From the NCBI RefSeq assembly GCF_013409595.1, contig NZ_JACCBD010000001.1, positions 496,001 through 560,000 of the forward strand: a stretch of 64,000 nt of DNA, read 5' to 3'. The notes beneath the pieces are model-generated. The model saw only the letters and a program-made list of their open reading frames with translations. It was not told the DNA's origin and did not search any database. The stretch comes from Leucobacter aridicollis. GTDB taxonomy: Bacteria > Actinomycetota > Actinomycetes > Actinomycetales > Microbacteriaceae. A program made the position numbers and the translations under genes. Positions 33,034 to 48,931 of the stretch are shown here, piece by piece. Each line of letters starts with the position of its first letter. Positions within the stretch are counted from its first letter, which is position 1.

Positions 33034-34524
33034 TTACTGTGCGGCTAGTATCTCTCCGGCTCGGGGGCCTCGCGGCACGTAACGTCCGGTGGGACCCCCC
33101 ACAACGGCACCGTTCTTGAGGACGTGTGAGCCACGCACGAACGTGTCGGTTACGAGTGCTTCGAGCGTAAACCCATCAAACGGCGTGTACTCCTGGCGCG
33201 ACTCGGAGTCCTCCGGGCGAATGACAGTGGTCTGCGTCGGATCGACGAGGGCAATATCCGCGTCATACCCAACAGCCAGATCTCCCTTGTCGGTCAGCCC
33301 GAAACGGCGTGCAACGTTCCACGAGGTGAGCTGTGCGATTCGCTGCTCTGACACCCCCCGCTTCAGACCCTCACCAACGAACCCGGGTAGGAGATACTCT
33401 GCCCCACCAAATCCCGATCGTGCAGCGAAAATGTCGTCGTGGGCGTCACCTTTGCCAAATTTCTCATCTTCAGTGCAGCACGCGTGGTCGCTGACGATCC
33501 AGTCGATGTTTCCTTCACCAACGTGGTGCCAAAGCGCTTCGATATCTGCCTCCGAGCGCAGAGGCGGGTTGACCTTGCCACCGAAGTTTGCCGCCGTGTT
33601 GTAGCTCGCCAGGAGATGCCCGATCGTTACCTCACGACGGAAGTTGACGTGCGGGAATGCGTCCTTCATGAGCATGGCCGCCTCCAGCGCCTTGGCCGAA
33701 GTCAAGTGCAGGAGGTTAATAGTGGGCAGTCGTGTTTCGTGCGCCAAGTACGAGGCAATGGTGATCGCCAGCCCCTCCGAGTGCGGCGGGCGTGCCGCGC
33801 TGTAAGCCTCGAGACCTTTGAGCTTGCCTTCTTCCTGCACTATCTCGGTGTACGCGCGCATAATCTCCGCGGTCTCACAGTGGAGGCCGAGGGAAATCTC
33901 GTCCGCGAATTCTGGCAGCTCTTCGCGCAACCGCTGCACGCCGCGCATGACGAATTCGAAGTGGGCGATGTCGTAATTCTCACCCTCAGGCAGCATGAGA
34001 AACTCTCGCTGGCTCGACGATGCTCCGTGCAAACCGAAGCCGCCGTAGAACATGTAGATTTTGAATGAGGTTACGCCAAATTCGTTGGTCAGCATGGGCA
34101 ACTCGTCGATGTGCTGCTTCGACATCGGTGCGACGTGAAAGGCGTAATCAATGTGCGAGCGGCCGGCGCAGGCGTTGAGAACCTTGGGCATGAACTGAGC
34201 GTATGAGCCGCCCTCGTTCATGTAGTACTGGCCAGTTCGGGTGTAGTTGATGCCTGTGGTTACGCCGCCCTGGGCCGATGCACGCGACTCACTGACGATG
34301 TCTTGATCAATGGGATTGTAGATGCCCCAGTGTTGGTGCGCATCAATCACACCGGGGAAGGCAAGCTTGCCCTCGCCATCGACAACGTGCTTTGCGAGCT
34401 CAGCGTTAATGGAAGACTCAATTGCCGCGATCTTGCCGTCTTTGACCGCGATATCGCCGACGATCGGGTCTGCGGTAGCGCTCACTACTTTGACATTCCT
34501 GATGAGAAGGTCGAATTCAGACAT
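33034..34524 (-). CDS. Dihydropyrimidinase/hydantoinase-family amidohydrolase
   Basis: This 496-residue cyclic amidohydrolase opens hydantoin, dihydropyrimidine or allantoin-like rings. The binuclear metal site is complete: H63 and H65 (DAHQHWG), the lysine to be carboxylated K155 (TSFKIYMFYGG), H215, H273 (LLHLTSAKA) and D346 (VSDHACC). The ATG at 34524 is preferred to a GTG at 34530 because AAGGAG overlaps the GTG but is well spaced from the ATG. It is the last gene of the CoA-transferase/cyclase/PrpD operon. A hydantoin racemase-like gene in the same island suggests a hydantoin or imide substrate; no carbamoylase is present. Confidence 0.87.
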   Translation of the reverse strand: MSEFDLLIRNVKVVSATADPIVGDIAVKDGKIAAIESSINAELAKHVVDGEGKLAFPGVIDAHQHWGIYNPIDQDIVSESRASAQGGVTTGINYTRTGQYYMNEGGSYAQFMPKVLNACAGRSHIDYAFHVAPMSKQHIDELPMLTNEFGVTSFKIYMFYGGFGLHGASSSQREFLMLPEGENYDIAHFEFVMRGVQRLREELPEFADEISLGLHCETAEIMRAYTEIVQEEGKLKGLEAYSAARPPHSEGLAITIASYLAHETRLPTINLLHLTSAKALEAAMLMKDAFPHVNFRREVTIGHLLASYNTAANFGGKVNPPLRSEADIEALWHHVGEGNIDWIVSDHACCTEDEKFGKGDAHDDIFAARSGFGGAEYLLPGFVGEGLKRGVSEQRIAQLTSWNVARRFGLTDKGDLAVGYDADIALVDPTQTTVIRPEDSESRQEYTPFDGFTLEALVTDTFVRGSHVLKNGAVVGGPTGRYVPRGPRAGEILAAQ

Positions 34525-34526
34525 GT

Positions 34527-35969
34527 TCACTCCTTGGAAGTTGTTCGGTTGCTAGGGGAATGTGAGGCGAGCGGTACTGCAATCGCTTCGCCGACGGACG
34601 TCAATCGCTCGAATTCTGCGACTGAAGCACGCACGTGTTGCACGGAATGCTCACTGAGCACTCTGGAGGCGTTGTCCTGAAACTTCGCCCCGAGCTCGTC
34701 AAAGCTGAGTGGATGCTCCGGCCCTCCGCGATTGACGAGCACCTTCTTCTCGAGGCGCTGCCCGTCGACGGTTAACACACGTAGTACCCCGGGGAATTGA
34801 TGAGGGAAGATGGCATCGCACTCGGCGTCGGCGACCACCGTAACCTTGTCCATGATCTTGCGTAGTTCCGGATCCGTCGCGCGTGCATCGGTGAAGTCGT
34901 CCAGGCCGAGGCCCAAACCACCGCCCCCGGTAAGGGCGGCAGCGATCACGAAGGGGGCGCTGAACTGTGCCATGTATCCAGTTTCGGGGCGCCGCTTGAC
35001 TGCGATAGGTTCCCCAATGGTGCGCGCGGGGGCCGCAGCCGCGCCGAGCTCGATGCTCTTGATGGCCTCGGGTCGGAGCCCCTCCGCGCGGAAAGCCAGG
35101 GCTGCGTCAATTGCTGCGTGAGTGAAATGGTTCGCCGGATACGGCTTGAAGAAGATACTCGGGACTGACCACACTTTTCCGAGATCCCGAGTGATCTCTT
35201 CCGGATCGAACTTTCCGTGCAACCAAGCTTCGTAGAAGCCGAATCTGCCCTCCAAGACAGTCGGTGGGCCAGTGAACCCGAGCGATACGAGTTGCGATGC
35301 CGACACTGCTGCGTGGGCTGCCCAGCCGCAGTGCATTCGTTTCACCGTCCCGCCGGTGCGGTTGGACTCGATCAGCCCTGAAGCCATGGATGCAGTGACT
35401 CCAAGCACGTCGGCGAGGCCAGTCTCGTCCAACCCGCTCAGCAGGCCGGCGGCGACCGCTGCGCCCATGGCGCCGGTGATTGAGGTGGCGTGTTGGCCGT
35501 GCTCAAAGAATGTAGAGTTGCCAGCTTCCTGGTCATAACCGGCCATTCCCAGCCGGACGCACACCTCAATTCCAACGGCGATCGCTGCAATCGTGGCCTC
35601 GCCGGATGCCCCAGTTGCCTCGGCGACTGCGAGCGTAGCGGGGACGATAGTTGCACTTGGATGCAGCACCGAAGGGAGATGGGTGTCGTCGTAGTCGAGG
35701 GAGTGGGCCAGCACGCCGTTGACGAATGCGGCGTTCTGGGCGGGGACCGCGTGGGAGAGCCCAATGGCGGTCGCCTGTGGGGTACCGCCTTGTCGCTCTA
35801 CCCATTGCATGGCTGCCTGGCTCGTTGACAGTTCTGTTGCGGCGAAACAGATGCCAAGAATATCGAGGATCCTACCTCTCACGCTTTCTACCACCGCCGA
35901 GGGAAGCGTATCGAAGTGAGTCTCGTATGCGAAGCGTGCCAGCTGCTGCGAAAGGGTCAGACTACTCAC
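34527..35969 (-). CDS. MmgE/PrpD family protein (first copy)
   Basis: This 480-residue member of the MmgE/PrpD family includes 2-methylcitrate dehydratase, cis-aconitate decarboxylase and iminodisuccinate epimerase. The family segment NGVLAHSLDYDDTHLPSVLHPSATIVPATLA is clear, as are GLIESNRTGGTVKRMHCGWAAH and FKPYPANHFTHAAIDAAL. The GTG start overlaps the upstream cyclase stop. It probably dehydrates, decarboxylates or epimerises a polycarboxylate; which of these cannot be told by eye. Confidence 0.88.
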   Translation of the reverse strand: MSSLTLSQQLARFAYETHFDTLPSAVVESVRGRILDILGICFAATELSTSQAAMQWVERQGGTPQATAIGLSHAVPAQNAAFVNGVLAHSLDYDDTHLPSVLHPSATIVPATLAVAEATGASGEATIAAIAVGIEVCVRLGMAGYDQEAGNSTFFEHGQHATSITGAMGAAVAAGLLSGLDETGLADVLGVTASMASGLIESNRTGGTVKRMHCGWAAHAAVSASQLVSLGFTGPPTVLEGRFGFYEAWLHGKFDPEEITRDLGKVWSVPSIFFKPYPANHFTHAAIDAALAFRAEGLRPEAIKSIELGAAAAPARTIGEPIAVKRRPETGYMAQFSAPFVIAAALTGGGGLGLGLDDFTDARATDPELRKIMDKVTVVADAECDAIFPHQFPGVLRVLTVDGQRLEKKVLVNRGGPEHPLSFDELGAKFQDNASRVLSEHSVQHVRASVAEFERLTSVGEAIAVPLASHSPSNRTTSKE

Positions 35970-36777
35970 CAGCGACCACCGCCAGCGGGCGCACTGGAGA
36001 GCCAGTTGCCCCGAAAATGTTCAAGGGTACGAGCACGAGGGTGAATTCCCACACCTGTTCGTGAGAGATCTCCTCGAGATTCATCGCTTCAATGATGTAG
36101 ATCCCGTGTTCGACAAGGAAGATGCGGTGAACGGGTAGCAAGCCATGGCCGGCACCGGGCTGGAGGCACTCGAACGCGATCGAATCGGCTCCTGCAGCGT
36201 GGATTTTCCGATCGGCAAGCCACTGGCCGACCTCCGGGCCGATACCCGGCACGCCGGATGGACCACCGACAAATGTAGCGCCCTCGTCAAATTTTGCACC
36301 CCAGCCGGAACGAATGAGCACGACGTCGCCTTCACGAACTTCGGTCCCCTGCTTCTCGAGTGTCGCCTCGAAGTCAGCGAGTGTGATCTCATAGCCACCG
36401 TCGAGCGTGGTTACGCCCAGATAAGCCGCGACATCGACGAGGATTCCCCGACGTAGCATTGGTTCGATCGTATGAACGCCATGCTCAACGTACTTCCCGC
36501 CCAGGCACGCGTCGCCCGCGTCGGCGCCGCCATACAACTCACCATCCTGACTGACGTGCGCGAGAGCATCGATATGGGTGCCCACATGGGTGCCAGTCGT
36601 GATCATGTCGTTTGCCGCGCTGCCGCCATCGGCACGCACCATGTCGCCATGGCGCCGCGGCAGCACATGCCAGAATTGAGGATGGTTCGGCGACTGCGGC
36701 ATCCCGACGCGCAGCTGTCGCGCTAAATCGTACGTTCGAACGTCCCCGTTCAGGGCCTGAACTAACCGGTCGGTCAC
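35962..36777 (-). CDS. Cyclase family metal-dependent hydrolase
   Basis: This 271-residue cyclase/kynurenine formamidase-like protein has the metal motif as THVGTHIDALAH near residues 62-73 and the closing GHGLLPVHRIFLVEHGIYIIE block. It belongs to the longer form of the family (about 270-300 residues) and so is a different subgroup from the 210-residue protein at 871-1503. The GTG overlaps the CoA-transferase stop by 4 bp and its own stop overlaps the PrpD start, so translation is coupled through the operon. A role as amide or lactam hydrolase is inferred. Confidence 0.86.
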   Translation of the reverse strand: MTDRLVQALNGDVRTYDLARQLRVGMPQSPNHPQFWHVLPRRHGDMVRADGGSAANDMITTGTHVGTHIDALAHVSQDGELYGGADAGDACLGGKYVEHGVHTIEPMLRRGILVDVAAYLGVTTLDGGYEITLADFEATLEKQGTEVREGDVVLIRSGWGAKFDEGATFVGGPSGVPGIGPEVGQWLADRKIHAAGADSIAFECLQPGAGHGLLPVHRIFLVEHGIYIIEAMNLEEISHEQVWEFTLVLVPLNIFGATGSPVRPLAVVAGE

Positions 36778-37973
36778 TTGATCGCACCACTTTCTCTAAG
36801 GTCTTGGATTTGGTCAGCCGTATAACCGGCTTCGAGGAGAACTGCGTCGGTATCTGCTCCGTGAGCGCGGCCCGTGAAACGAATCGACCCGGGTGACTTT
36901 GACATCCGCCACATGACGTTGTGCTGGAGGAGCGGTCCGAGGTCAGGATCGTTGACCTCCGTCAGCATTTCTGTTTGTCGAATATGAGGGTCATCCACGA
37001 TGTCAGCAGCGTCATATACGGGGGCGATGGCGGCGCCGGCTTCGGTGAAAGCCTCGACGACTTCGTCGAGAGTGCGGGCGGCGATCCAGTCACCGACGTA
37101 CCCATCCAGGAGCTCAACGTGTTCGACTCTGCCTGCGCCGGTCGCAAACCAGGGTTCGGTGATGACCTCTGGGTGCCCGACGAGTGTGAGAACACGTTCT
37201 GCAATTGATTGCGCGCTTGTTGAAATTGCGAGCCACTTACCGTCTCCAGTGAGGTAGGTGTTCCTGGGGGCGTTGTTCACGGATCGATTGCCGTTGCGCT
37301 CGCCGATGATGCCGAGCTGCTGGTAAACCGTCGGTGAAGGGCCAACAGCGGTGAGGATAGGTTCGAGAATGCTCATGTCAACAACCTGCCCTTCGCCTGT
37401 GGCATCGCGATGACGAAGTGCCATGACAGTGGCCGACGAGGCAGCGATACCGCAAATACTGTCAGCAAGTCCAAAGGCAGGCAGGCTCGGCGCGGCATCG
37501 GCGGGACCGGTTAGGTGGGCGAAGCCGCTCATCGACTCAGCCAGGGTGCCGAAGCCCGCGCGCGCGGCGTATGGGCCGGTTTGGCCAAATCCGGTAATCC
37601 GGACGATGACGAGGCCTGGATTGAGCGCGTGTAGTTCCGCCGGGGAAAGCCCCCATCGTTCAAGCGTTCCTGGTCTGAAATTCTCAACCAACACATCGGC
37701 GTCCCGCACGAGGCGTTTAAGGGCCTCGGCTCCGCTCGGCACGCTCAAACTAAGTGCAACGCCACGTTTGTTACGAGAGACTTCTTTCCACCAGATGGGA
37801 TGACCGTTCTTTTGGTGGCCATGCCCACGTAGCCCGTCAGGCTTCGTAGGATGCTCGATCTTGATGACCTCTGCGCCAAAGTCGCCGAGAATCTGGCAGC
37901 ACAGGGGACCTGCGATGATCGTCGACGCGTCTATGACCTTGATTCCCGAAAGCGGGGCCTGATCTGTGCCCAA
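36774..37973 (-). CDS. Class III CoA-transferase (CaiB/BaiF family)
   Basis: This 399-residue CoA-transferase moves CoA between carboxylic acids. The family opening GIKVIDASTIIAGPLCCQILGDFGAEVIKIEHP, the catalytic-loop region ENFRPGTLERWGL and the TGFGQTGPYA block are present. A TTG at 37973 is the likely start: the sequence AAAGGAGG stands 5 bases upstream. A longer reading from another TTG at 38030 would put this strong ribosome site inside the gene. It is the first gene of a four-gene operon and probably activates the substrate acid. Three candidate operators or operator-like repeats lie upstream. Confidence 0.88.
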   Translation of the reverse strand: MGTDQAPLSGIKVIDASTIIAGPLCCQILGDFGAEVIKIEHPTKPDGLRGHGHQKNGHPIWWKEVSRNKRGVALSLSVPSGAEALKRLVRDADVLVENFRPGTLERWGLSPAELHALNPGLVIVRITGFGQTGPYAARAGFGTLAESMSGFAHLTGPADAAPSLPAFGLADSICGIAASSATVMALRHRDATGEGQVVDMSILEPILTAVGPSPTVYQQLGIIGERNGNRSVNNAPRNTYLTGDGKWLAISTSAQSIAERVLTLVGHPEVITEPWFATGAGRVEHVELLDGYVGDWIAARTLDEVVEAFTEAGAAIAPVYDAADIVDDPHIRQTEMLTEVNDPDLGPLLQHNVMWRMSKSPGSIRFTGRAHGADTDAVLLEAGYTADQIQDLRESGAIK

Positions 37974-38045
37974 TGGTGCCTCCTTTGGCAGCGGGTGAGC
38001 GTCACGGGCGGGAGCCGCAACGGACGCCAATGAGTCTACAGAAAA

Positions 38046-38062
38046 GTTTCGTTCAAAGAAAC
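38046..38062. promoter_or_regulatory. Island inverted repeat, site 1 (upstream of CoA-transferase operon)
   Basis: GTTTC-N7-GAAAC lies 73 bp upstream of the TTG start. It has the same 5-7-5 architecture as four other sites in the island and may be an IclR operator; it differs at one base per arm. Confidence 0.4.
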
Positions 38063-38176
38063 ATGCGGTTCAGAATTTACGATCTAAGCGTGGCGGTTAA
38101 TTCAAAATCTATCTCAGAATATCGTTTTGATCTGGTTTTATTGTTTGAACAACGAGAGTTTTGTTCCTGGAAGACT

Positions 38177-38193
38177 GTTCCTACTTGCGGAAC
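38177..38193. promoter_or_regulatory. Island inverted repeat, site 2
   Basis: GTTCC-N7-GGAAC, perfect arms, overlaps the 3' end of the lyase gene and lies about 200 bp upstream of the CoA-transferase operon. Same architecture as the other island sites. Confidence 0.45.
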
Positions 38194-39050
38194 GTCAGCG
38201 AGTCGTTAATCGCAACTATGCGTTTGGCTCCCTCAACCATTGCGGCATCGAGGAATGATCCATCAGGCAGCACCACCGTGCCGGAACTGTCTGCAGCTGC
38301 CTCGCCAACGCGGGTCAGAGTCTCCCGCGCCCGAACGACTTCCTCGGTTGAAGGCGCAAACGACTCTCGGATTGGGGCAAGCTGCGAAGGGTGTATCGCT
38401 GCGCGGCCCAGGAAGCCCAGCATTCGACCCTTGGTGCAGCTTGCGCGAAGGCCCTCGCTGTCTCTCACGTTGGTAAAGACGCTCATGAGTGGGGGGACGA
38501 TCCCTGCGGCAGCCGCGGCGTTGACGATTCGTGATCGGGCCCAGGCGAGGCCAAAGTTCGCCTCGAGACCCGGGGGAAGTCCGAGTGCAGAGCAAAGGTC
38601 CGCTTCCCCTAGGCCGATTGAGGACACTCCGGCCTGCGCAATCGCAAAAGCGTTCTCGACGCCGAGCGGTGACTCGATAAGGGCGTGCCAGTGTCTCCCC
38701 GGGAGGAGCTCCTGAGCCCGCTCTACGTCCTCGGCGGCGTGAACCTTCGGCATACGGATTTCTACGTGTGGTGGAAGGTGCGCAACTGCGGCGAGATCGG
38801 CATCGTGCCAGATTGAACCTCGCGGGTTCACCCTTACCTGCACTTTTTGTTCCCCCATGGCAAGGTCGGACAGAGCACTGTGCATCCCCAGTCGTGCCCG
38901 GTGCTTATTGTCGGCGCTTACGGCGTCTTCCAAGTCAACGATGACGATATCGGCACCGGACCCGAGTGCTTTCCGCACACGATCTGTGCGGTCTCCAGGA
39001 ACGTAGAGCGCAGTGAGTGCGACACTGGCAGGTGAGCGATGCATTTCCAT
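38181..39050 (-). CDS. HpcH/HpaI aldolase/citrate lyase family protein (CitE-like)
   Basis: This 289-residue CitE-like lyase starts with the typical ALYVPGDRTDRVRKALGSGADIVIVDLEDAVS and carries the metal-binding Glu region IESPLGVENAF, the SIGLGEADL loop and the GFLGRAAIHPSQ block. CitE-like enzymes cleave or form beta-hydroxyacyl-CoA esters such as malyl-CoA or citramalyl-CoA. With the neighbouring CoA-transferase this gives an activation-plus-cleavage pair, as in itaconate degradation. It lies 29 bp after iclR on the same strand, so the two are probably cotranscribed. Product identity is inferred. Confidence 0.87.
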   Translation of the reverse strand: MEMHRSPASVALTALYVPGDRTDRVRKALGSGADIVIVDLEDAVSADNKHRARLGMHSALSDLAMGEQKVQVRVNPRGSIWHDADLAAVAHLPPHVEIRMPKVHAAEDVERAQELLPGRHWHALIESPLGVENAFAIAQAGVSSIGLGEADLCSALGLPPGLEANFGLAWARSRIVNAAAAAGIVPPLMSVFTNVRDSEGLRASCTKGRMLGFLGRAAIHPSQLAPIRESFAPSTEEVVRARETLTRVGEAAADSSGTVVLPDGSFLDAAMVEGAKRIVAINDSLTFRK

Positions 39051-39079
39051 AGTTTGTTCGACTCCTGTGCAAGTGATGG

Positions 39080-39895
39080 TTACGGGTTGAGTGGGGCCTT
39101 GAGCCCTGCAGTGAGTTGATCGGCTGCGGCCATGGCCTGGTTCGCTAGCGACACCTCCCTTTCGGGAGTAAGGCGTGACGTGAGCGCGGCCACGCTGATC
39201 GCGCCAATCACTTCGTTGAATCGGTTGCGCACGGGAGCAGCGAAACTCGTTGAGTCCCGAACCCGCTCGCCGGTGGTGCGCGCGAAACCCTCTTGGCGTA
39301 CACGTTCGAGTCGGGCTCTGAGCATCTCCGGTGCAGTAATGGTGCTTTCGCTGAGTGCGGGAACTGGAGCGCGCAGCGAAGCCTCGATCTCGTCGTCAGG
39401 GAGGAACGCGAGGATTGCGGCGCCTGAGGCTCCAACCGTCAGGGGATGCGTTGCTCCGACCTCTACGGAAATGCGCACAAGCTGTCGGCTCTCGACTTGC
39501 CCAATGTAGACCCGGCGGTGGCCGATGCGGGACGACAGCGTCGTGGTTTCGCCTGCTATTTCTGCTAGGTCTGTGATGATCTCCATTCCTAGCCGGCGAA
39601 ACCGAGTCGTCTGGTTCGCAGAGTCAACGAGCGAAAAGGCAGCGAAGCCAACCTGATACTTGCGGGTTTCGGGATTCTGCCAGAGGAATCCCGTCGAGCA
39701 TAGTGTCTGCACGATTCTGTGAACCACGGCTTTGCTGAGGCCCGTTGTTTGAGCAATGTGTGTAATCCCAATCGGCTCCTTGGAGCCTGCGAAAGCTAGG
39801 AGTACCTCTGCTACTCGGGCGGTCGTGGAGTCAGCTGGGGTTTGGGGGCGGATCGGCGTCTCGCTCATCGGATCACTTTCTGTCTCTGTGTGCAT
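39080..39895 (-). CDS. IclR family transcriptional regulator
   Basis: This 271-residue regulator has an N-terminal winged helix (ARVAEVLLAFAG to HIAQTTGLSKAVVHRIVQTL, about residues 26-66) and the IclR effector domain, with the late motif GFARTTGERVRDSTSFAAPVRN. It is divergent from the second PrpD gene and sits in the centre of the island, so it is the obvious pathway regulator. IclR proteins bind short imperfect palindromes; the GTTCC-N7-GGAAC sites are the candidates. The ATG at 39895 lacks a good ribosome site, and an ATG at 39868 is an alternative. Confidence 0.9.
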   Translation of the reverse strand: MHTETESDPMSETPIRPQTPADSTTARVAEVLLAFAGSKEPIGITHIAQTTGLSKAVVHRIVQTLCSTGFLWQNPETRKYQVGFAAFSLVDSANQTTRFRRLGMEIITDLAEIAGETTTLSSRIGHRRVYIGQVESRQLVRISVEVGATHPLTVGASGAAILAFLPDDEIEASLRAPVPALSESTITAPEMLRARLERVRQEGFARTTGERVRDSTSFAAPVRNRFNEVIGAISVAALTSRLTPEREVSLANQAMAAADQLTAGLKAPLNP

Positions 39896-39939
39896 GGGAG
39901 CTCACCGAAAAGAGTGTCGGTGTGCGTAAAGCGTATGTA

Positions 39940-39945: not shown

Positions 39946-39977
39946 CGCAGGAGTCGGGCTCGATGCCGAGTCTGAAT

Positions 39978-41384: not shown

Positions 41385-42050
41385 ATGAGAATACGAGCAA
41401 TAACGCCAATCCGGGTAGACGAGTCGGAACTCACGCGAAGGCAGAAACGTTACGACAGGCTCGCACCGGAGGGGTGGCAGTTTGATGTTGAGAACCTCCC
41501 GCCAGGAGCGCCTGATCAGCTCGGCACGATCGCTGATCTACGCCGGTCCGAGGAAGCCGGTGTACATGTGGCACTGAACTCGCAGCGGAGCGCAACCGCG
41601 GCGGTAATGCCTGACTGTGTGCTCGACCCCGGAGTGCTCGCATTGTCCGAGGACGTTCCCCAGGCTGTGCTTGGAATCACCCGGCTGAGTGCTGGATTTC
41701 TCGCGGCACTGGGTGTGAAGTTCGGTGTCATTACACGGAATCGAGTCATTGCAGACGAATATGAAGCCACTGTTCGCCGCTACGGGATAGCCCACCTTTT
41801 CAGCGGAGCCTATGTGATGGATCTCAGCGTTGAGGACATCTCGAACACGGTGCTCTGGAACGCACGCGTCTCTGCAATTGTGGCCACGGCCTCAGCCGAC
41901 GGTGTGGAGGTGTTGATTAATGGCTGCTCGGCCGTTGAAGTGACGGCAGCCCCAGGAGGGGTCCCCGTCGTGGACCCGACGGCTCTGGCCCTCAAGGTTG
42001 CTGAGCTAGGCGTCCAGGAGGGGTTGCTCGGGAATGTTGCGAGAAAGTGA
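41385..42050 (+). CDS. Asp/Glu/hydantoin racemase family protein
   Basis: This 221-residue protein resembles the Asp/Glu/hydantoin racemase and maleate isomerase superfamily. Two cysteines stand where the catalytic pair is expected: C78 in MPDCVLDPG and C181 in LINGCSAVE. It could racemise a hydantoin or amino acid or isomerise maleate. Pairing with a hydantoinase-type gene in the same island favours a hydantoin-like substrate, while the PrpD and CitE-like genes fit maleate chemistry. Cotranscription with the PrpD gene is likely. Confidence 0.75.
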   Translation: MRIRAITPIRVDESELTRRQKRYDRLAPEGWQFDVENLPPGAPDQLGTIADLRRSEEAGVHVALNSQRSATAAVMPDCVLDPGVLALSEDVPQAVLGITRLSAGFLAALGVKFGVITRNRVIADEYEATVRRYGIAHLFSGAYVMDLSVEDISNTVLWNARVSAIVATASADGVEVLINGCSAVEVTAAPGGVPVVDPTALALKVAELGVQEGLLGNVARK

Positions 42051-42106
42051 TTTCGCTCTACGGAACACGGGATTTCGGGCAAATATTGGGAAAATCTTTT
42101 GTTTTC

Positions 42107-42138
42107 TTGACATCACCGGGGTGCCTCCCGTGTATGCT
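42107..42138 (+). promoter_or_regulatory. Candidate promoter of the liv operon
   Basis: TTGACA at 42107 and TATGCT at 42133 are separated by 20 bp, longer than ideal. They precede the inverted repeat at 42160-42176 and the first transporter gene. Confidence 0.4.
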
Positions 42139-42159
42139 GGGTGTCAGAAGTAACCTCAG

Positions 42160-42176
42160 ATTCCGTTAATCGGAAC
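42160..42176. promoter_or_regulatory. Island inverted repeat, site 4 (upstream of livK)
   Basis: ATTCC-N7-GGAAC (centre GTTAATC) lies about 22 bp downstream of the candidate -10, where a repressor would block transcription. It closely resembles site 5. Confidence 0.5.
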
Positions 42177-42201
42177 TATGTCGATGGTGATGGAGGATGG
42201 C

Positions 42202-43440
42202 ATGAAAGCAAAGAAGCTCACGCTTGTCGCAACGTTTGCAGTGGCCGCACTTGCGCTTACTGCGTGCCAAGGCGCCGCCGCTAGCGGTGGTTCTGGCGGC
42301 GATGGGGCCGTCGAAGAAATTGTAATTGGCGCGCTCCACCCGCTGAGCGGCGCCAACGCAGCCGATGGTCAGCAGATGAGTCACGCGGCCAAGATGGCGG
42401 TCGATGAGATCAACGAGGCTGGTGGAATCGAGTCGCTCAACGGGGCCAAGCTTGTGCTCGAAGCAGTCGATACCAAGGGCGAGCCAGAGACTGGCCAAAG
42501 CGAGGCCACGCGCCTGATCCAGGAGGGGGCTTCGGCACTCGTTGGATCGTTTCAAAGCGGAACGAGCGCCAATATCGCTGCCGTCTCAGAACGCAATGAG
42601 GTGCCGTTCGTGATGGACGTTTCGGCACTTGACTCGATTCTCGAGCAGGGCTATACATATTCGTTCCGAGTGCAGCCATCCGGTGGCATGATGGGCGAGC
42701 GGTCAGCCGTGTATCTCAAAGACATGGCAGATGAGGCAGGCACCGAGATTCAAAGAATCGGATTCCTCTATGAACAGGGCAACTATGGTGCTTCTGTATA
42801 CAAAGCATTTGAGGCAAAAGCCTCTGAGCTTGGAATGACGGTATCCACCGCGATCAGCTACGACCCGGCCGCCAGTGACCTTTCGACTCAGGTGCAGCAG
42901 GCGCTCGCGGGGGGTGTGGATCTGCTCGCCGTGACGGGATACTACCGCGATGGGCTGCTGATCTCGCAGGCAGTCAACGCGATGGCGCCAGACGTAAAAG
43001 CCGTGTTTGGTGTGGCCAATGGAGGCTACGACCAAACCCAGTTTGTCGTGGACGCGCCAAACGGTGGCGAAGGCTACTTGAATGCCAACTATCGAATTGA
43101 TGTCACGAACGATCGCAGCAAGGCTGTAGCCGCAGCGTTTGAAGAATCGTTTGGTGAGCCGATGCGTACGAGCGCCGCCCTAACGTATGACGCTGTGAAC
43201 GTGATCGCTGCCGCGTTGGAAGAGGGCGGGAGCGCGGTTCCCTCTGATATCCGTGACGCCATCGCAGAACTGAGCTATGAGCCGATCGTCGTCAACGACG
43301 GCCCGGTGGAGTTTGACAGTGCCGGGCAGAACAAGAACGCCACAGTCTCTGTGCTGCAGGTGCAAGGCGGCAAGACGCTGACTGTGTTCCCCAACGAACT
43401 CGCTGAGGCCTCGTATGTCTTTCCGGCTCCGGTGAAGTAG
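42202..43440 (+). CDS. livK: Branched-chain-amino-acid-type ABC transporter substrate-binding lipoprotein
   Basis: This 412-residue periplasmic-binding-type lipoprotein of the LivJ/LivK family (Peripla_BP_6) has a signal peptide ending in the lipobox LTAC, a Gly/Ser linker, then IVIGALHPLSGANAADGQQMSHAAKMAVDEIN, the family start. The ATG at 42202 is chosen because GGAGG lies 5 bases upstream; an ATG 24 bp earlier lacks a site. It captures the substrate for the LivHMGF importer. Members bind amino acids, amides, urea or aromatic acids, so the family does not fix the ligand. Confidence 0.9.
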   Translation: MKAKKLTLVATFAVAALALTACQGAAASGGSGGDGAVEEIVIGALHPLSGANAADGQQMSHAAKMAVDEINEAGGIESLNGAKLVLEAVDTKGEPETGQSEATRLIQEGASALVGSFQSGTSANIAAVSERNEVPFVMDVSALDSILEQGYTYSFRVQPSGGMMGERSAVYLKDMADEAGTEIQRIGFLYEQGNYGASVYKAFEAKASELGMTVSTAISYDPAASDLSTQVQQALAGGVDLLAVTGYYRDGLLISQAVNAMAPDVKAVFGVANGGYDQTQFVVDAPNGGEGYLNANYRIDVTNDRSKAVAAAFEESFGEPMRTSAALTYDAVNVIAAALEEGGSAVPSDIRDAIAELSYEPIVVNDGPVEFDSAGQNKNATVSVLQVQGGKTLTVFPNELAEASYVFPAPVK

Positions 43441-43454
43441 GGATCATACGCGCC

Positions 43455-44498
43455 GTGGGAAAAGCAATAACTACACAAGTATCGACGGCCGAGACGTCCC
43501 CCGTCGCCGAGAGCGGTGTCAGCGCTCCGGGCGACGGTCCGGCTCGTCGTTTCAATGGTCCATCAATGCGAACGCTGCTGGTGACCCTCGCAATCATCGT
43601 GGTCGCTTCGGTCGTAGCCGGACTCGTGTCTGGCAGCACTACGGTGCTGGTGCAGGCGCTCAGCACGGGTTTGTTGACCGGTGGAATCTACAGTCTCATC
43701 GCGATGGGACTGACCTTGGTGTACGGGGTGCTACACGTTATCAACTTCGCTAACGGGGCGATGGTTGCGCTGGCAATGTTTATCACGTACGCCGCCGTCA
43801 ACGGGCTTGGGATGCACCCATATGTTGCCTTGCTCGTCACGGTGCCAGCCATGTTCGTTATCGGGGTGGCGATTCAGGCGATGCTACTCAATCCGATCAT
43901 GCGCGCGCCGATTCACACCCAGCTGTTGGTGACAATCGGCGTCGCGCTCGCAATCGAGAACATTCTTCTCCTGACCTTTGGGCCCAATCCGCTCTCAGTC
44001 TCGCTGCCGGGCAATCACGGCGTGAATATCTTTGGTGCCACGGTAGAGCTCAGCAGGATTTACGCATTTGTCGGAGCGCTGGTGCTCGTCGCAGTGCTGT
44101 GGATTGTCTTGCAGCGCACACGAATCGGCACGGCGATTCGGTCTGTGGCGTCGAGCCCGGAAGGGGCGCGACTGGTTGGAATTAACGTGAAGTTCATTTA
44201 TGTGCTTACGTTTGGGCTGGGCGCCGCCGCAGCTGGGGCTGCCGGAACCTTTGTCTCGACCTTTACGACGGTCGAGCCCACGGCCGGAGCAATCTTCAAC
44301 CTCACCGCATTCGTCGTTGTGGTGCTCGGTGGTATGGGTAATGTTCCCGGAGCCCTGGTCGGCGGGCTCATCGTCGGGCTGACAGAGCAGCTCGGCGGGC
44401 TCATCCTTCCCGGCCAATCGCCGCTTCTCGCGGTGTTCATTGTCTTCTTGATTGTGCTGTTTGCTAAGCCCAAGGGGATTTTTGGGAGGTCAGCATGA
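43455..44498 (+). CDS. livH: Branched-chain-type ABC transporter permease LivH
   Basis: This 347-residue inner-membrane permease has an unusual hydrophilic N-terminal extension of about 40 residues, then the LivH core starting LLTGGIYSLIAMGLTLVYGVLHVINFANG, which is the family hallmark. About 8 transmembrane segments follow. The GTG start lies 14 bp after livK, and the stop overlaps livM (ATGA). Confidence 0.92.
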   Translation: MGKAITTQVSTAETSPVAESGVSAPGDGPARRFNGPSMRTLLVTLAIIVVASVVAGLVSGSTTVLVQALSTGLLTGGIYSLIAMGLTLVYGVLHVINFANGAMVALAMFITYAAVNGLGMHPYVALLVTVPAMFVIGVAIQAMLLNPIMRAPIHTQLLVTIGVALAIENILLLTFGPNPLSVSLPGNHGVNIFGATVELSRIYAFVGALVLVAVLWIVLQRTRIGTAIRSVASSPEGARLVGINVKFIYVLTFGLGAAAAGAAGTFVSTFTTVEPTAGAIFNLTAFVVVVLGGMGNVPGALVGGLIVGLTEQLGGLILPGQSPLLAVFIVFLIVLFAKPKGIFGRSA

Positions 44499-45556
44499 CA
44501 ACGTCAACAATTACTCGCCCGGAACCACCTGCTGCGACCGGTGCGATTATCGCCCGCCGTGTGTCGAATAACAACCAGCGGTGGAACTACATCATTCTCG
44601 CTGGAGTCGCATTGATCGGTGCGGTGCTCCCGTTCCTTTTGCCTCCTGCGGAACTAAGCATCGCCATGCGCATCATCATCTTCGCGCTCATGGGTATCGG
44701 CTGGAACATGATGAGCGGCTTCGGCGGAATGTTTAGTTTTGGTCATGCGGCCTATTTCGGTATCGGGGCGTACACCACGGCCTTTCTTGTAGTAGATCTG
44801 GGGATCTCTCCGTGGGTGGGGATGATCGCCGGCATGGCGTTTGCGAGCTTGGCTGCGGTTGGGATTAGCTATCTCGCGTTGAGGTATAGGCTCACGGGGG
44901 CGTACTACGCGTTGTCGACTTTCGCGTTTGCTGAGATGCTCCGACTCTTTGTCATGGGAAGTGGGCCGCTCAACCGCACCGTCGGGTTCACGGTCCCGGT
45001 TTTGCAGGGAGACAACTGGGCAATGTTCCAATTCCGGGCCGGCTCGCCGATCTATTTCTGGATCGGCACTGCTTTTCTCGTCCTGGCGCTCGCAGTGACT
45101 ATTGTGTTTCTGCGCAGCAGGACCGGGCGATTTACGATTGCTGTGCGGGACGATGAGATGGCCGCGGCAGCGATTGGTATTCCGGTATTGCGCCACAAGC
45201 TTACGGTCGTGGCGATTTCTGCGGCAATCACCGCAGTCGCGGGCACGCTGTACCTGCAGTTCTACATGTTCGTTGATCCTGAGATCGCTTTTGGACACGC
45301 GGCATCTAACAACGCAATCATTACAGCGGTGGTGGGTGGTGTCGGCACACTTTGGGGACCAGTTCTCGGCGCAGTGATAGTGGCGCCCTTGAGTGACCTT
45401 GTCACGGCGCTGTTGAGGAACCCTCCTGAGTGGTTGAGCTTCCTTGAGGGGCAGAGCGGGCTCGATATTCTCCTGTACGCCATCATCCTCATTGCGTGTG
45501 TCATTCTCCTTCCGAAGGGCATCGTCGGAACCATGCTGGGTCGGAGGCGGAAATGA
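44495..45556 (+). CDS. livM: Branched-chain-type ABC transporter permease LivM
   Basis: This 353-residue permease has the LivM segment GWNMMSGFGGMFSFGHAAYFGIGAYTTA and the EAA-like loop IAVRDDEMAAAAIGI. About 9-10 hydrophobic segments are present. GGGAGG precedes the ATG, which overlaps the livH stop; the stop overlaps the livG start, so translation is coupled along the operon. Confidence 0.92.
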   Translation: MTTSTITRPEPPAATGAIIARRVSNNNQRWNYIILAGVALIGAVLPFLLPPAELSIAMRIIIFALMGIGWNMMSGFGGMFSFGHAAYFGIGAYTTAFLVVDLGISPWVGMIAGMAFASLAAVGISYLALRYRLTGAYYALSTFAFAEMLRLFVMGSGPLNRTVGFTVPVLQGDNWAMFQFRAGSPIYFWIGTAFLVLALAVTIVFLRSRTGRFTIAVRDDEMAAAAIGIPVLRHKLTVVAISAAITAVAGTLYLQFYMFVDPEIAFGHAASNNAIITAVVGGVGTLWGPVLGAVIVAPLSDLVTALLRNPPEWLSFLEGQSGLDILLYAIILIACVILLPKGIVGTMLGRRRK

Positions 45557-46287
45557 GCTTGCTAGAGATTCGCGGGGTTACGAAGTCGTTTCGAGGCATC
45601 CGCGCGCTTCGTGGCGTCGACATCAGCGTTGAAGAAGGCGAGATTCTTGGCATTATCGGAGCAAATGGCGCCGGTAAGACCACCCTCTTTAACTGCATTA
45701 CAGGTGCGTTTGCCCCTGACTCGGGGGCGGTGACGCTTGACGGCGCAGACATTACCGGAGCCAAGACGCATGTCCTTGCACGCGCTGGCTTCGTGCGCAC
45801 GTTTCAGCTCATGCGGCCGTTTGGAACTATGACGACGCTCGAGAACATTACGGTGGCAGTCCAAAGTCGGGGCGTGCGCACGGAACACGCTGCACGTGAA
45901 GAGGCCGAGGAACTGCTGATACGGACTGGACTTGAGCGTTGGATGGGAAGTACCTCTGCATCCCTCCCCACGGCAGTGCAGAAGCGGCTTGAACTGACAC
46001 GTGCGTTAGCGCTGAAGCCCCGTGTGCTGCTGCTTGACGAGGTGCTTGCAGGACTGGTGCCCTCGGAACGTGCGCCCGTACTGGACTTGTTAGAGGAACT
46101 GCGTCGGGAGGAAGGGGTCACGTTGCTGTTCATTGAGCACATCATGGCCGCAGTTCGGCAGTTGAGTGACCGGGTTGTGATGATGGATCAGGGAGCCGTG
46201 CTCGCGGAGGGCGCGGTAGACGATGTGTTAGCTGACCCGCGTGTGATTGCCGCCTACCTGGGGAAGGAATACGGAGATGCTGCTTGA
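45553..46287 (+). CDS. livG: Branched-chain-type ABC transporter ATP-binding protein LivG
   Basis: This 244-residue ATPase has Walker A GANGAGKTT, the LivG-type LTGxxxP-like region FVRTFQLMRPFGTMTTLENI, and Walker B LLLDEVLAGL followed by the H-loop IEH. The signature motif is degenerate, reading SASLPTAVQKRLELTRAL instead of the usual LSGGQ-type sequence, although the position is right. The ATG at 45553 overlaps the livM stop. Confidence 0.9.
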   Translation: MSLLEIRGVTKSFRGIRALRGVDISVEEGEILGIIGANGAGKTTLFNCITGAFAPDSGAVTLDGADITGAKTHVLARAGFVRTFQLMRPFGTMTTLENITVAVQSRGVRTEHAAREEAEELLIRTGLERWMGSTSASLPTAVQKRLELTRALALKPRVLLLDEVLAGLVPSERAPVLDLLEELRREEGVTLLFIEHIMAAVRQLSDRVVMMDQGAVLAEGAVDDVLADPRVIAAYLGKEYGDAA

Positions 46288-46978
46288 AGTAGACGAGGTA
46301 CGCAGCGGCTATCACGGACTCGAGATTCTGCATGGCGTATCGCTGTCGGTAGAACCGGGAGAGGTGGTTGCGATTGTTGGGGCGAACGGAGCGGGAAAAT
46401 CAACGACCCTGAAGACAATCGCCGGAGAGGTCAAGCAGTTCGCTGGCTCAGTGAAGTTCGATGGGAAGCCGATCTCCTTCGGCGGGAGCCACCAAGTGGC
46501 TCGGAGAGGACTCATGCTCGTCCCAGAAGGACGGGCCCTATTCGGCTCTTTGACGGTTGAGGACAACCTCAAAATGGGTGCTTGGGGTGCTCGGGATCGG
46601 AGCGGATTCTCGGAGCAAGAAATCCTCGAACTCTTTCCGATTCTCGAGGAGCGCCGAGATCAGCTTGCCGACACCATGTCTGGTGGTCAGCAGCAGATGC
46701 TAGCTATCGCGCGAGCCCTCATGGGGGCCCCTCGGCTGCTGATGCTGGACGAGCCGTCAACCGGGCTATCGCCGAAACTGACGTGGGATGTCTTTCACGC
46801 AGTGAACGCGATCCGCGAACGGGGCGTGGGCGTGCTCATCGTCGAGCAGAATGCTCGGCAAGTGCTCGACCTGGCGGACCGTGCATATGTGCTGGAATCA
46901 GGCCTGGTTGCCCTCTCCGGGGACTCAGCAGAACTCGCTAACGATCCACGGGTGCAGGCGGCTTATCTCGGAGGTTGA
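46277..46978 (+). CDS. livF: Branched-chain-type ABC transporter ATP-binding protein LivF
   Basis: This 233-residue ATPase has Walker A GANGAGKST, the LivF-type RGLMLVPEGRALFGSLTVEDNL, signature MSGGQQQMLAIARAL and Walker B LLMLDEPSTGLSP. The ATG at 46277 lies inside the last codons of livG, an 11-bp overlap. Together with LivG it should power the importer. Confidence 0.93.
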   Translation: MLLEVDEVRSGYHGLEILHGVSLSVEPGEVVAIVGANGAGKSTTLKTIAGEVKQFAGSVKFDGKPISFGGSHQVARRGLMLVPEGRALFGSLTVEDNLKMGAWGARDRSGFSEQEILELFPILEERRDQLADTMSGGQQQMLAIARALMGAPRLLMLDEPSTGLSPKLTWDVFHAVNAIRERGVGVLIVEQNARQVLDLADRAYVLESGLVALSGDSAELANDPRVQAAYLGG

Positions 46979-47006
46979 CTCCACCGCGTCCGGTGTGAGC
47001 TCGGCG

Positions 47007-47408
47007 CTAGGAAACCACGCCGAGCTCAGCCAGATCGTTCCAGACGAACTGCTCCACGATGAATCCGTCTCGGATGGTGAACACATCGACATAGCGGATG
47101 TCTGTGAATCCTTCGCCGTGCGGGTCCTCGCCGTACAGGCGTCCCATGCTCGTGACGCTGAGTAGACCCGTGTCCGTGTCGGAACCGACCAAGAACCGGT
47201 CTCGATACTTTCGGACCCACCGATATCGGTTGCCGGTTTCTTGCGCGAGCGCCTCGAAGCTGTCGAATACCCTGCCGCCGGGGAACGTCATGCGGAGATC
47301 GCCGGGCCCCCAGTACCTCGCGGCGGACTTGAAATCTCTATCCTCACAGAGCTGGAGATACCTATCGATACCCGCGGCAACATTGTGGTGGGTGAGCGGC
47401 TTGTGCAT
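47007..47408 (-). CDS. NTF2-like/SnoaL-like small protein
   Basis: This 133-residue protein has the alternating helix-strand pattern of the NTF2-like fold, beginning with a helix (AAGIDRYLQLCEDRDFKSAARYW) and ending with YVDVFTIRDGFIVEQFVW, the usual final strands. Members act as isomerases, dehydratases or ring-hydroxylating subunits, and many have no known role. It is convergent with livF and divergent from the FAD enzyme gene across 146 bp. Function is unassigned. Confidence 0.75.
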   Translation of the reverse strand: MHKPLTHHNVAAGIDRYLQLCEDRDFKSAARYWGPGDLRMTFPGGRVFDSFEALAQETGNRYRWVRKYRDRFLVGSDTDTGLLSVTSMGRLYGEDPHGEGFTDIRYVDVFTIRDGFIVEQFVWNDLAELGVVS

Positions 47409-47490
47409 CAGGCTCTCCGATTGGGTTGTTGCGCTGAAAGGAACATGTATGCAATGAATGCTAAGATTCGTTGAAATAATCGTGTACTCT

Positions 47491-47507
47491 GTACCTGTTA
47501 ACGGAAC
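47491..47507. promoter_or_regulatory. Island inverted repeat, site 5 (upstream of FAD oxidoreductase)
   Basis: GTACC-N7-GGAAC (centre TGTTAAC) lies 48 bp upstream of the FAD gene and downstream of TTGAAA (47471). It has one arm mismatch and shares the GTTAA centre with site 4. Confidence 0.45.
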
Positions 47508-47554
47508 CCTAACTCATGTGATTTGATCCCATCCCTCAGCGAGGAGGTAAAACG

Positions 47555-48931
47555 GTGGACAACGAATTTGAAGGACCTGACGTCGTAGTTGCGGGAGCAG
47601 GCGGCGGCCTCGTCGCAGCTCTCCGCGCGGCCCAGTGGGGGCTGTCCGTGCTAGTAATCGACTCGAATGAGAGCTTCAGTCGGGGGAACAACACGTCGAT
47701 GTCGACGGCGATGATCCCCGCTATGGGCACGAGGTTTCAACGGGCGGCAGGCGTTGCAGACTCCCCAGAGAAGTTTCTGGGCGACGTCGCTGCGAAAACC
47801 GGCGGAAACTATAGCGTAGCTGTCGCAAGGTCGCTCGCGGAAATGAGTGCGGAGCTCGTTGAATGGCTTGCGGACGACGCAGGTCTGGACATCTCCTTGG
47901 TGACTGATTTTACTTACCCGGGGCACAGCGTGTTTCGCTGCCACACGATCCCAGGCCGCTCTGGGGCAGCGATGCTCGGAGGTCTGCTCGCTGCGGTGCG
48001 GGCCCATGATCTTATCGACGTCTATGTGCCAGCCCGACTGCTTGATGTGAACACTTCTCACGGTCAAGTGACTAGCGTGACTGTTGAAACACCAGATGGG
48101 GAAGAAGAGATTTCAACCCGTGCAGTTATCCTCGCGACTAATGGATTCGCTGCAAACACAAGTCTCGTCGCCACCCACATTCCAGAGATTGCTGGGGCCA
48201 CGTACTTTGGAAGCGAACACTCTCGGGGCGATGCTCTGCGTATTGGCTCGTCACTAGGTGCGGCGACTGCCTACCTAGACGCGTACCAGGGGCATGCGGG
48301 CCTAGCAATGCCAGCCGCATCGCTTGCGACCTGGGCCACTGTCATGCACGGCGGTTTCCTCGTGAACGTCGAGGGCCAACGCTACGGGAACGAGGCAAGT
48401 GGTTACTCAGAATACGCGGCTGAATCGCTTCGCCACGCAGCAGGTGAATCGTGGATCATCATTGACCAGCGGATCTACGATGCTTGCCTCGCGTTTCAAG
48501 ATTTTCTCGACGTTATCGCGGGGAACGGTGTGAAATGGGGAGAGGACCCTCGTGCTCTTTCGGCGTCGACGGGTATCGACGTCCACGGACTTTCCAGCAC
48601 GGTCGAAGCGGTGTCGGAGATCGCTCGTGGAACCACCACGGACCCCTTTGGTCGAACCAACTGGTCCGCCCCTCTCGAAGGTCGACTCGCAGCCATTCGC
48701 GTACAGCCAGCGCTGTTTCATACCCAGGGGGGACTGCAGGTGAACGATCGAGCGCAGGTCCTTACGGGCGGAGGGCAACCGATCCCCGGGCTTTACGCTG
48801 CGGGCGGAGCTGCTTCTGGAATCTCAGGTCATGGGGCGAGCGGGTATCTTGCAGGTAATGGCCTGCTTCCAGCCTTGGGGCTGTCGTATATTGCGGCGAC
48901 CGAGATAGCTCGTTGGCTCAAGCCGGCGTGA
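47555..48931 (+). CDS. FAD-dependent oxidoreductase (fumarate reductase flavoprotein-like)
   Basis: This 458-residue flavoprotein of the FAD_binding_2 superfamily includes fumarate reductase, tricarballylate dehydrogenase and ketosteroid dehydrogenase. The dinucleotide loop is VVVAGAGGGLVAALRAA at the N-terminus, and the C-terminal FAD block reads PIPGLYAAGGAASGISGHGASGYLAGNGLLPAL. GAGGAGG precedes the GTG. A probable role is oxidation or reduction of a C=C bond in the island pathway. It is the last island gene before parA. Confidence 0.87.
   Translation: MDNEFEGPDVVVAGAGGGLVAALRAAQWGLSVLVIDSNESFSRGNNTSMSTAMIPAMGTRFQRAAGVADSPEKFLGDVAAKTGGNYSVAVARSLAEMSAELVEWLADDAGLDISLVTDFTYPGHSVFRCHTIPGRSGAAMLGGLLAAVRAHDLIDVYVPARLLDVNTSHGQVTSVTVETPDGEEEISTRAVILATNGFAANTSLVATHIPEIAGATYFGSEHSRGDALRIGSSLGAATAYLDAYQGHAGLAMPAASLATWATVMHGGFLVNVEGQRYGNEASGYSEYAAESLRHAAGESWIIIDQRIYDACLAFQDFLDVIAGNGVKWGEDPRALSASTGIDVHGLSSTVEAVSEIARGTTTDPFGRTNWSAPLEGRLAAIRVQPALFHTQGGLQVNDRAQVLTGGGQPIPGLYAAGGAASGISGHGASGYLAGNGLLPALGLSYIAATEIARWLKPA

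Follow-up and report, generated by a model that had tools for sequence, protein, structure and literature searches.

The DNA analysed here, called the window throughout, is a stretch of 64,000 nucleotides of Leucobacter aridicollis (contig NZ_JACCBD010000001.1) that covers bases 496001-560000 of the 3.57-Mb single-contig genome. Between xerD and parA of this Leucobacter chromosome 15 genes fill positions 33034-48931, and together they are a real, foreign and apparently regulated catabolic block. The original prediction, drawn from the letters alone, had described about 15 genes of lower G+C content at this place, among them a hydantoinase, a racemase, two PrpD proteins, a cyclase, a coenzyme A (CoA) transferase, a lyase, an FAD enzyme, an IclR regulator and a liv importer. 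Pfam and NCBIfam recovered all the enzyme families and the regulator; of the importer, LivK was found by Pfam, whereas LivHMGF were assigned by reading and not by family search. The features are listed below with the short names used in the text and, in brackets, the evidence for each.

32937..49650, no strand: whole insert between xerD and parA (empty-site relative G003, G+C)
31921..32934, plus strand: xerD, left flank
33034..34530, minus strand: HYD, cyclic amidohydrolase of the allantoinase/hydantoinase/dihydroorotase superfamily, putative ring opening (Pfam, NCBIfam, residues)
34527..35969, minus strand: PRPD1, MmgE/PrpD protein in which the residues for binding a 1,4-dicarboxylate are complete, with Asp in place of Glu at one position (Pfam, alignment)
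35962..36777, minus strand: CYC, PF04199 metal hydrolase, relative of isatin hydrolase and kynurenine formamidase (Pfam, residues)
36774..38030, minus strand: COAT, class-III CoA-transferase (Pfam, NCBIfam, residues)
38178..38192, no strand: candidate IclR operator TTCC-N7-GGAA, lying some 150 bp ahead of COAT and overlapping the end of LYASE (pattern search)
38181..39050, minus strand: LYASE, HpcH/HpaI CitE-like acyl-CoA lyase (Pfam, NCBIfam, residues)
39080..39895, minus strand: ICLR, IclR-family regulator (Pfam, NCBIfam)
39979..39993, no strand: candidate IclR operator in the promoter region between the divergent genes ICLR and PRPD2 (pattern search)
39998..41332, plus strand: PRPD2, the other MmgE/PrpD protein, in which binding residues are altered (Pfam, alignment)
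41385..42050, plus strand: RACE, two-cysteine racemase, fold nearest to allantoin/hydantoin racemase (Pfam, residues, model)
42161..42175, no strand: candidate IclR operator immediately upstream of livK (pattern search)
42178..43440, plus strand: LivK-type substrate-binding protein (Pfam)
43455..44498, plus strand: LivH-type permease (by reading)
44495..45556, plus strand: LivM-type permease (by reading)
45553..46287, plus strand: LivG-type ATPase, longest open reading frame (ORF) from 45496 (by reading)
46277..46978, plus strand: LivF-type ATPase, longest ORF from 46247 (by reading)
47007..47408, minus strand: NTF2/SnoaL-like protein of 133 amino acids (structure model)
47555..48931, plus strand: FAD, fumarate-reductase/flavocytochrome-c-like flavoenzyme, FAD_binding_2 (Pfam, NCBIfam, residues)
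49712..50566, plus strand: parA, right flank, followed by scpA and scpB

Overlaps of 4-8 bases join the genes in COAT-CYC-PRPD1-HYD, and of 4-11 bases those in LivH-M-G-F, which is an operon-like arrangement. The G+C content is 0.595 in 33034-48931 versus 0.69 in the remaining window (ribosomal RNA operon excluded). The mean G+C content at third codon positions (GC3) is 0.663 (0.62-0.71) in 13 island ORFs versus 0.862 +/- 0.064 in 34 ORFs outside; the ORFs were called greedily, some of those outside are probably not genes, and the lowest two outside values (0.69 and 0.74) approach those of the island. By fixed coordinates, GC3 is 0.76 for the NTF2-like gene and 0.60 for FAD, both of which the greedy caller omitted. 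A check of G+C and codon use along the window had been suggested; G+C and GC3 are not uniform and set the island apart.

An empty xerD-parA site, which the original prediction had hoped to see in related genomes, exists in the close Leucobacter relative G003 (XerD and ScpA 94-95% identical), where the two genes are about 126 bases apart. Identity to the window ends at 32936 on the xerD side and restarts at 49651 on the parA side; the insert is therefore 32937-49650, or 16.7 kb, and replaces about 63 bases in G003 without a match to either flank. Atypical composition together with an empty site in a relative marks a horizontally acquired island. No tRNA was found in the 64-kb window, no integrase among the 15 island genes by reading and Pfam, and no repeats that pair the two insert edges, whose junction stretches share no word of at least 10 bases. 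The island thus lacks the marks of an integrase-borne element, be it an integrative and conjugative element, a prophage or a tRNA island, and insertion through homologous recombination in the conserved neighbour genes would fit best.

We examined the xerD-parA interval in 54 Leucobacter genomes, of which 54 contain XerD and 51 ScpA. The interval could be measured in 43 of them (one contig, same strand), or 42 without the window's own, leaving out three genomes without a ScpA match and eight with the genes on separate contigs. With a fixed 860 bases subtracted for parA and some xerD/scpA matches being partial, it is shorter than 0.4 kb in 12 of the 42 genomes, 0.4-1.5 kb in 6 and at least 1.5 kb in 24. 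Cargo was read ORF by ORF in 11 intervals, with some proteins in four of them (G060, G012, G010 and G019) assigned by Pfam. G060 has an M1 peptidase and an AMP-ligase/hexapeptide protein, G012 an ATP-binding cassette (ABC) binding protein, an enoyl-CoA hydratase, an acyl-CoA ligase, a short-chain dehydrogenase/reductase (SDR) and a MaoC protein, and G010 a LuxR-type ATPase regulator. None of the island genes was seen in these 11 intervals except in G065. As the gap varies in size and holds other cargo where it was read, the xerD-parA interval is a hotspot in Leucobacter. The island had been thought to split a conserved xerD-parA block; the interval that it entered is too variable within the genus to be called one. 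As a further observation, the close relative G019 (locus L162) has RHS-repeat proteins in this interval (Pfam).

Presence of the same genes at this site in all close relatives, which would have refuted the prediction, is not what was found: HYD orthologues occur in 3 of the 54 Leucobacter genomes (the window's own, G065 and G021), and the FAD enzyme in 1 of 54. The G021 copy of HYD lies at a contig end and is not adjacent to xerD. In G065 the contig order is parA, other cargo, IclR, IclR, LYASE, COAT, CYC, PRPD1, HYD, xerD, so that the core sits in the xerD-parA interval next to xerD and in the same orientation as in the window, without orthologues of PRPD2, RACE and FAD. The core proteins of both genomes are 63-87% identical, compared with 69% for xerD and 68% for the next gene. 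GC3 of the G065 core is 0.80-0.90, and the two copies therefore differ in compositional history. The suggestion that the island was acquired as a unit holds as far as its foreign composition and sporadic occurrence go; its apparent division into a core and a separable module, with the core but not that module in G065, does not agree with it. The parA-side half of the G065 interval also encodes an NMT1-type binding protein (Pfam) and an ABC ATPase (by reading). A cassette in this half (L180, 2740-8246) contains a racemase, an FAD monooxygenase, an arylmalonate-decarboxylase-like protein, an aldehyde dehydrogenase and a class-III aminotransferase.

A scan of named genomes with HYD gave 311 relatives, of which the best 80 were fetched with 10-kb flanks; the flanks cut many clusters, and presence is counted within them. 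Identity thresholds for the locus counts and the residue orthologue sets were chosen by eye, the residue sets being also filtered for coverage, and ORF families across loci were thinned by a greedy filter. HYD is accompanied by COAT in 69 of the 80 loci, ICLR in 59, LYASE in 57, CYC in 56 and PRPD1 in 54, and the complete set of five core genes is present in 47. FAD (35), RACE (26), PRPD2 (23), LivK (18) and LivHMGF (17-18) are less frequent, and the NTF2-like gene was found beside the core in 7 of 80 loci (7 of 84 searched). The loci come from Micromonospora, Nocardia, Amycolatopsis, Actinomadura, Pseudonocardia, Nonomuraea, Streptomyces, Leucobacter and Brevibacterium, among others, and from several metagenome-assembled genomes (MAGs); at some, e.g. 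several in Nonomuraea, HYD has few partners. PRPD1 was searched beyond the flanks in 23 genomes and matched in 20; among the 18 Liv-bearing loci it lies inside the fetched stretch in 3, while in 14, one of them matched only partially, its coordinates fall 0.06-3 kb outside.

Judged by gene content, the core (cyclic amidohydrolase, MmgE/PrpD protein, cyclase-fold hydrolase, CoA-transferase, CitE-like lyase and IclR regulator) recurs in Actinobacteria with apparently interchangeable front ends. Three layouts were seen: the core and IclR, often with an NMT1-type importer, an SDR, an M20 hydrolase and an alpha/beta hydrolase (A); the core with Liv, PRPD2, RACE and FAD (B); and the core with a major facilitator superfamily carrier, PRPD2, RACE and FAD (C). 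Front-end names were given by reading, except for the M20 protein of locus L041 and the NMT1 protein of G065 (Pfam). Gene set and order nearly as in the window are found in Brevibacterium sp. CCUG 69071 (L036), where 11 island proteins are 51-84% identical; DnaB, used as a single-gene control, has 65%, a value that 8 of the 11 exceed and 3 do not reach.

The history of HYD was followed in a midpoint-rooted tree of 81 rows, labelled by FAD genes inside the fetched flanks. One group of 34 rows lacks FAD (support 95/78) and a weakly supported group of 40 (83/72) has it in 34; the label changes 7 times, versus a mean of 26.7 in shuffles (0 of 500 as low). A third group (100/99) comprises 7 rows: the window, three MAGs, Brevibacterium and another two Leucobacter. 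FAD is present in 2 of the 7, namely the window and Brevibacterium. From this position the island looks like a layout-A core to which a second module was added, the alternative being loss in the others. The 15 genes look like a core and a separable second module rather than one unit. The Brevibacterium row is nested among those of the three Leucobacter (99/94). This points to transfer from one family to another, although the long branch of Brevibacterium keeps it from being firm.

Some further loci were noted in passing. On plasmid pDND3A of Rhodococcus gordoniae (L156, 2451-9365) the core directly adjoins genes annotated as HyuA/HyuB, an amidase gene and one for a MaoC protein to which the mesaconyl-CoA hydratase model has a match, and another PrpD and CoA-transferase also lie beside it; no paper on this strain was found in the open-licence literature. 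A plasmid of Variovorax sp. PBL-E5 (L158) encodes a 33% identical HYD relative near F420 biosynthesis genes, a flavin oxidoreductase and a nitroreductase. The 31% identical relative on a plasmid of Shinella sp. WSC3-e (L159) lies near two aconitases and genes of the isocitrate-lyase/phosphoenolpyruvate-mutase, isochorismatase and MmgE/PrpD families, and is thus another putative ring-opener close to dicarboxylate enzymes.

The island had been called a self-contained import-and-degradation unit, and its gene set bears this out for import, regulation and degradation alike, with the likely catalytic residues conserved in orthologues. Naming these residues catalytic draws on motif knowledge, except for the PrpD proteins and FAD, for which alignments were used. 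In HYD, H65, H67, K157, H217, H275, D348 and Y162 are kept in at least 97% of 81 orthologues. The two-metal centre of cyclic amidohydrolases is described as four His, one carbamylated Lys and one Asp (PMC9863593). HYD has the features of this superfamily, with its putative metal site assigned by motif. The top NCBIfam model is allantoinase (among the best 25 of 63 matches), and the scores for AllB (209 bits, cut-off 358), D-hydantoinase (190, cut-off 393) and dihydroorotase PRK02382 (194, cut-off 452) stay below the equivalog cut-offs for all three specific enzymes. CYC keeps H64, T67, H68 and D70 (n=57) and COAT keeps D190 (n=70) in at least 97% of orthologues. C78 and C181 of RACE are invariant in 24 orthologues, and its structure model (pLDDT 90.9) is nearest to allantoin racemase, then hydantoin racemase, at 17-20% identity; with fold and both Cys in place it is a predicted two-cysteine racemase, in which the pair would be catalytic by motif knowledge. 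FAD keeps Y284, H247 and H389 in at least 97% of orthologues. Its Tyr284 aligns to residue 402 and Tyr431 to Arg544 of flavocytochrome c3 (chain 1jrz). This chain itself has Tyr at 402, which we take to be an engineered change from Arg402. Fumarate and urocanate reductases have a catalytic and a carboxylate-binding Arg. With Tyr at both Arg positions, FAD was rejected as a fumarate or urocanate reductase. The 47007-47408 protein, which the original prediction had left unnamed, has no Pfam match; its model has the NTF2/SnoaL fold, nearest to a 4OT-SnoaL protein (37% identity).

PRPD1 and PRPD2 both pass the Pfam cut-offs for the N- and C-terminal MmgE/PrpD domains, and score 57 and 42 bits against the 2-methylcitrate dehydratase PrpD model of NCBIfam (cut-off 950). 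According to a study of the family, every characterised MmgE/PrpD substrate contains a four-carbon 1,4-dicarboxylate, which in docking is bound via His88, Glu91, His102, His152, Lys202 and Lys266 (PMC12290011). Transferred by way of alignments other than that paper's own sequence, these positions correspond in PRPD1 to His89, Asp92, His103, His160, Lys210 and Lys275, present in 54 of 54 orthologues, and in PRPD2 to Val/Ala/Cys86, Glu89, His100, His148, Arg199 and Lys260 in 24 of 24. As PRPD1 keeps all six positions with one Asp for Glu, its substrate is very likely a 1,4-dicarboxylate. PRPD2 probably takes something altered.

Four TTCC-N7-GGAA sites occur in the window, three of them in the island (upstream of COAT, in the ICLR/PRPD2 gap and upstream of livK). 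At the 80 other loci the stretches of at most 300 bases before cluster genes, 167 kb in all, contain 34 such sites, versus 43 in 1366 kb elsewhere, a 6.4-fold enrichment with a Fisher p of 1.3e-13 that overstates the significance, as the loci are related. Among eight comparison patterns, the palindrome lengthened by one base on each side gave 6.9-fold and the seven controls 0 to 3.8-fold enrichment. The comparison of divergent promoters covers loci with adjacent PRPD2 and ICLR, thus leaving out L061, L088 and L091. The IclR protein may bind these candidate sites.

Beyond the computed gene content, foreign composition, edges, residue conservation, module architecture and operator enrichment, we infer the reaction order and that importer and enzymes share one substrate. 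In the proposed scheme, the Liv-type ABC importer would take up a ring-shaped amide, imide or ureide, whose mirror forms RACE would interconvert. HYD, as a two-metal cyclic amidohydrolase, would open the ring and CYC would take off the remaining amide or acyl-N group. FAD would add or remove a C=C bond, the direction being a matter of inference. PRPD1 and PRPD2 would isomerise or (de)hydrate a 1,4-dicarboxylate of the methylsuccinate, citramalate or citraconate type, to which COAT would attach CoA before LYASE cleaves the ester, with a 2-oxoacid and an acyl-CoA as products. Control of the transcription units would fall to the IclR protein via the TTCC-N7-GGAA sites. The main reason for this order are the PRPD1 residues, which place the dicarboxylate downstream of the ring-opening enzymes. 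Where the original prediction had left the choice between a cyclic amide and a di- or tricarboxylate, the island is best read as dealing with both in sequence, from ring to 1,4-dicarboxylate, at the level of a presumed class rather than a fixed compound. We regard it as about as likely as not that this whole account is right, from the horizontal acquisition of the catabolic genes at a recombination hotspot to a pathway leading from ring opening to dicarboxylate CoA cleavage. More tentatively, and with doubt prevailing, we suggest an undescribed actinobacterial pathway in which a cyclic imide or ureide with a carboxylate group is resolved and opened by RACE and HYD. PrpD-type isomerases would pass the resulting branched 1,4-dicarboxylate on to the CoA-transferase and CitE-like lyase, and interchangeable front-end modules for different ring compounds would serve one fixed core.

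Several points weigh against this scheme. HYD, PRPD1, PRPD2, LYASE, COAT and CYC fall under every NCBIfam cut-off listed for them and are therefore identified to the superfamily and not as specific enzymes, and the proposed chemistry, with a cyclic amide, imide or ureide as substrate, amounts to an educated guess about classes of compound. PRPD2 deviates from the binding residues of its family and therefore may not take a 1,4-dicarboxylate. No CoA-ester hydratase is encoded in the island; a mesaconyl-CoA-hydratase-like MaoC protein lies elsewhere in the genome, about 2.07 Mb away. RACE, PRPD2 and FAD are all absent within the flanks of 43 of the 80 loci, hence not obligatory, and the Liv-bearing MAG locus L037 has no PRPD1 match at E <= 1e-70. 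The operator count in the window is modestly unusual (shuffles average 0.6, and 1 of 100 had at least four), upstream sites are present at just 30 of the 80 loci, and the relatedness of the loci tempers the enrichment. As to cis-aconitate decarboxylation, PRPD1 has Asn280 at the position of the mouse IRG1 His and PRPD2 lacks further residues; this role was rejected for both PrpD proteins.

If the target of HYD and CYC were a lactone or some minor side substrate rather than a C-N ring, the island would be a pathway for a branched short-chain dicarboxylate such as itaconate, methylsuccinate, citramalate, tricarballylate or aconitate. COAT, LYASE and PrpD are indeed enzyme types of the itaconate/methylsuccinate cluster, FAD scores on the TcuA tricarballylate dehydrogenase models (112 bits, cut-off 369), and the carrier type differs among loci. 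We nevertheless regard this as unlikely: the loci are defined by a member of the cyclic amidohydrolase superfamily and 56 of the 80 have CYC, MaoC hydratase and acyl-CoA dehydrogenase are absent from the island, LYASE, with 133 bits, stays below the NCBIfam cut-off for RipC/Ccl (375), and FAD has Tyr at the positions of two active-site Arg of flavocytochrome c3. It is improbable, too, that the core is the lower part of a nicotinate-like N-heteroaromatic pathway, in which a molybdenum (Mo) hydroxylase and a ring reductase encoded elsewhere yield a reduced lactam for HYD to open. By eye, Mo-hydroxylase large subunits were seen in 4 and old yellow enzyme (OYE)-type reductases in 5 of 84 loci, so that such genes do occur but are rare; RACE would have no obvious role, and PF02738 has no match in the window's genome, the same search being positive in 5 of 14 control genomes. 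A route from isonicotinate or citrazinate to cis-aconitate was also rejected, with no PF02738 in the genome and nothing useful in the open-licence literature. The fold of RACE, the allantoinase model leading for HYD and one above-cut-off TIGR01879 (carbamoylase-type) match elsewhere in the genome would suit a classical route for hydantoin or allantoin (racemase, hydantoinase, carbamoylase), with the dicarboxylate genes as chance passengers. This is very improbable and was rejected, as a carbamoylase is absent from the island, HYD stays well below the allantoinase cut-off, and chance leaves COAT and LYASE beside HYD in 69 and 57 of 80 loci unexplained.

Elsewhere in the window, a complete rRNA operon (13634-18965) lies about 14 kb ahead of the island. 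Another low-G+C gene (0.58) at 60536-61522 on the minus strand encodes an Abi_2/AbiD-type abortive-infection protein (Pfam, PADLOC). At 9497-13110 an NCS1-type cytosine/purine/uracil permease and a carbon-nitrogen hydrolase (Pfam) adjoin an Lrp-like regulator (by eye), possibly a further N-compound operon, and at 823-1497 a second PF04199 cyclase-family gene follows a putative arginase/agmatinase-family gene (by eye). Downstream of scpAB, 55961-63961 contains an isocitrate/isopropylmalate-type dehydrogenase, an aldehyde dehydrogenase, an SDR and an amidase (Pfam), and an ABC gene (by eye).

A thin search of the open-licence PubMed Central literature returned allantoinase papers only and no paper matching the gene set as a whole, which is a new combination of known enzyme types. 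If the proposed pathway is correct, a recurring unnamed actinobacterial route joins ring-shaped N compounds to branched-dicarboxylate CoA chemistry. It would also provide a new context for MmgE/PrpD proteins, which are described as mostly lacking characterisation (PMC12290011). The xerD-parA interval is furthermore marked as a cargo-swapping site in Leucobacter.

Among known systems, the itaconate/methylsuccinate cluster (ict, ich, ccl, mcd, mmgE) shares with the island a CoA-transferase, a CitE-like lyase and an MmgE/PrpD protein, and the expected end products, an acyl-CoA and a 2-oxoacid. In that cluster the MmgE/PrpD protein is a methylsuccinate isomerase alongside the CoA-transferase and citramalyl-CoA lyase (PMC12290011). 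The island differs in having two PrpD proteins and neither ich nor mcd, so that the combination of ict, ich and ccl which defines the cluster is incomplete for want of an ich-type hydratase, and it adds the amidohydrolase, the PF04199 hydrolase, the racemase and the fumarate-reductase-like flavoenzyme. With hydantoin and allantoin utilisation it has in common the pair of a racemase fold and a cyclic amidohydrolase, which could resolve a racemic ring compound; in contrast, it has no carbamoylase or allantoate hydrolase, and the product would reach a CoA-transferase and a lyase. Cyclic imide degradation proceeds via an imidase and a half-amidase to a dicarboxylate. Its course of ring opening, second amide hydrolysis and dicarboxylate resembles the proposed route, and imidase is listed in the cyclic amidohydrolase superfamily (PMC9863593). 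Here the difference lies in the half-amidase, whose role in the island would go to the PF04199 protein. Nicotinate-type heterocycle pathways end in dimethylmaleate or glutarate. They too proceed from a ring-opening amidohydrolase to dicarboxylate steps, but use other lyase and dehydratase families, and the PF02738 Mo-hydroxylase has no counterpart in this genome.

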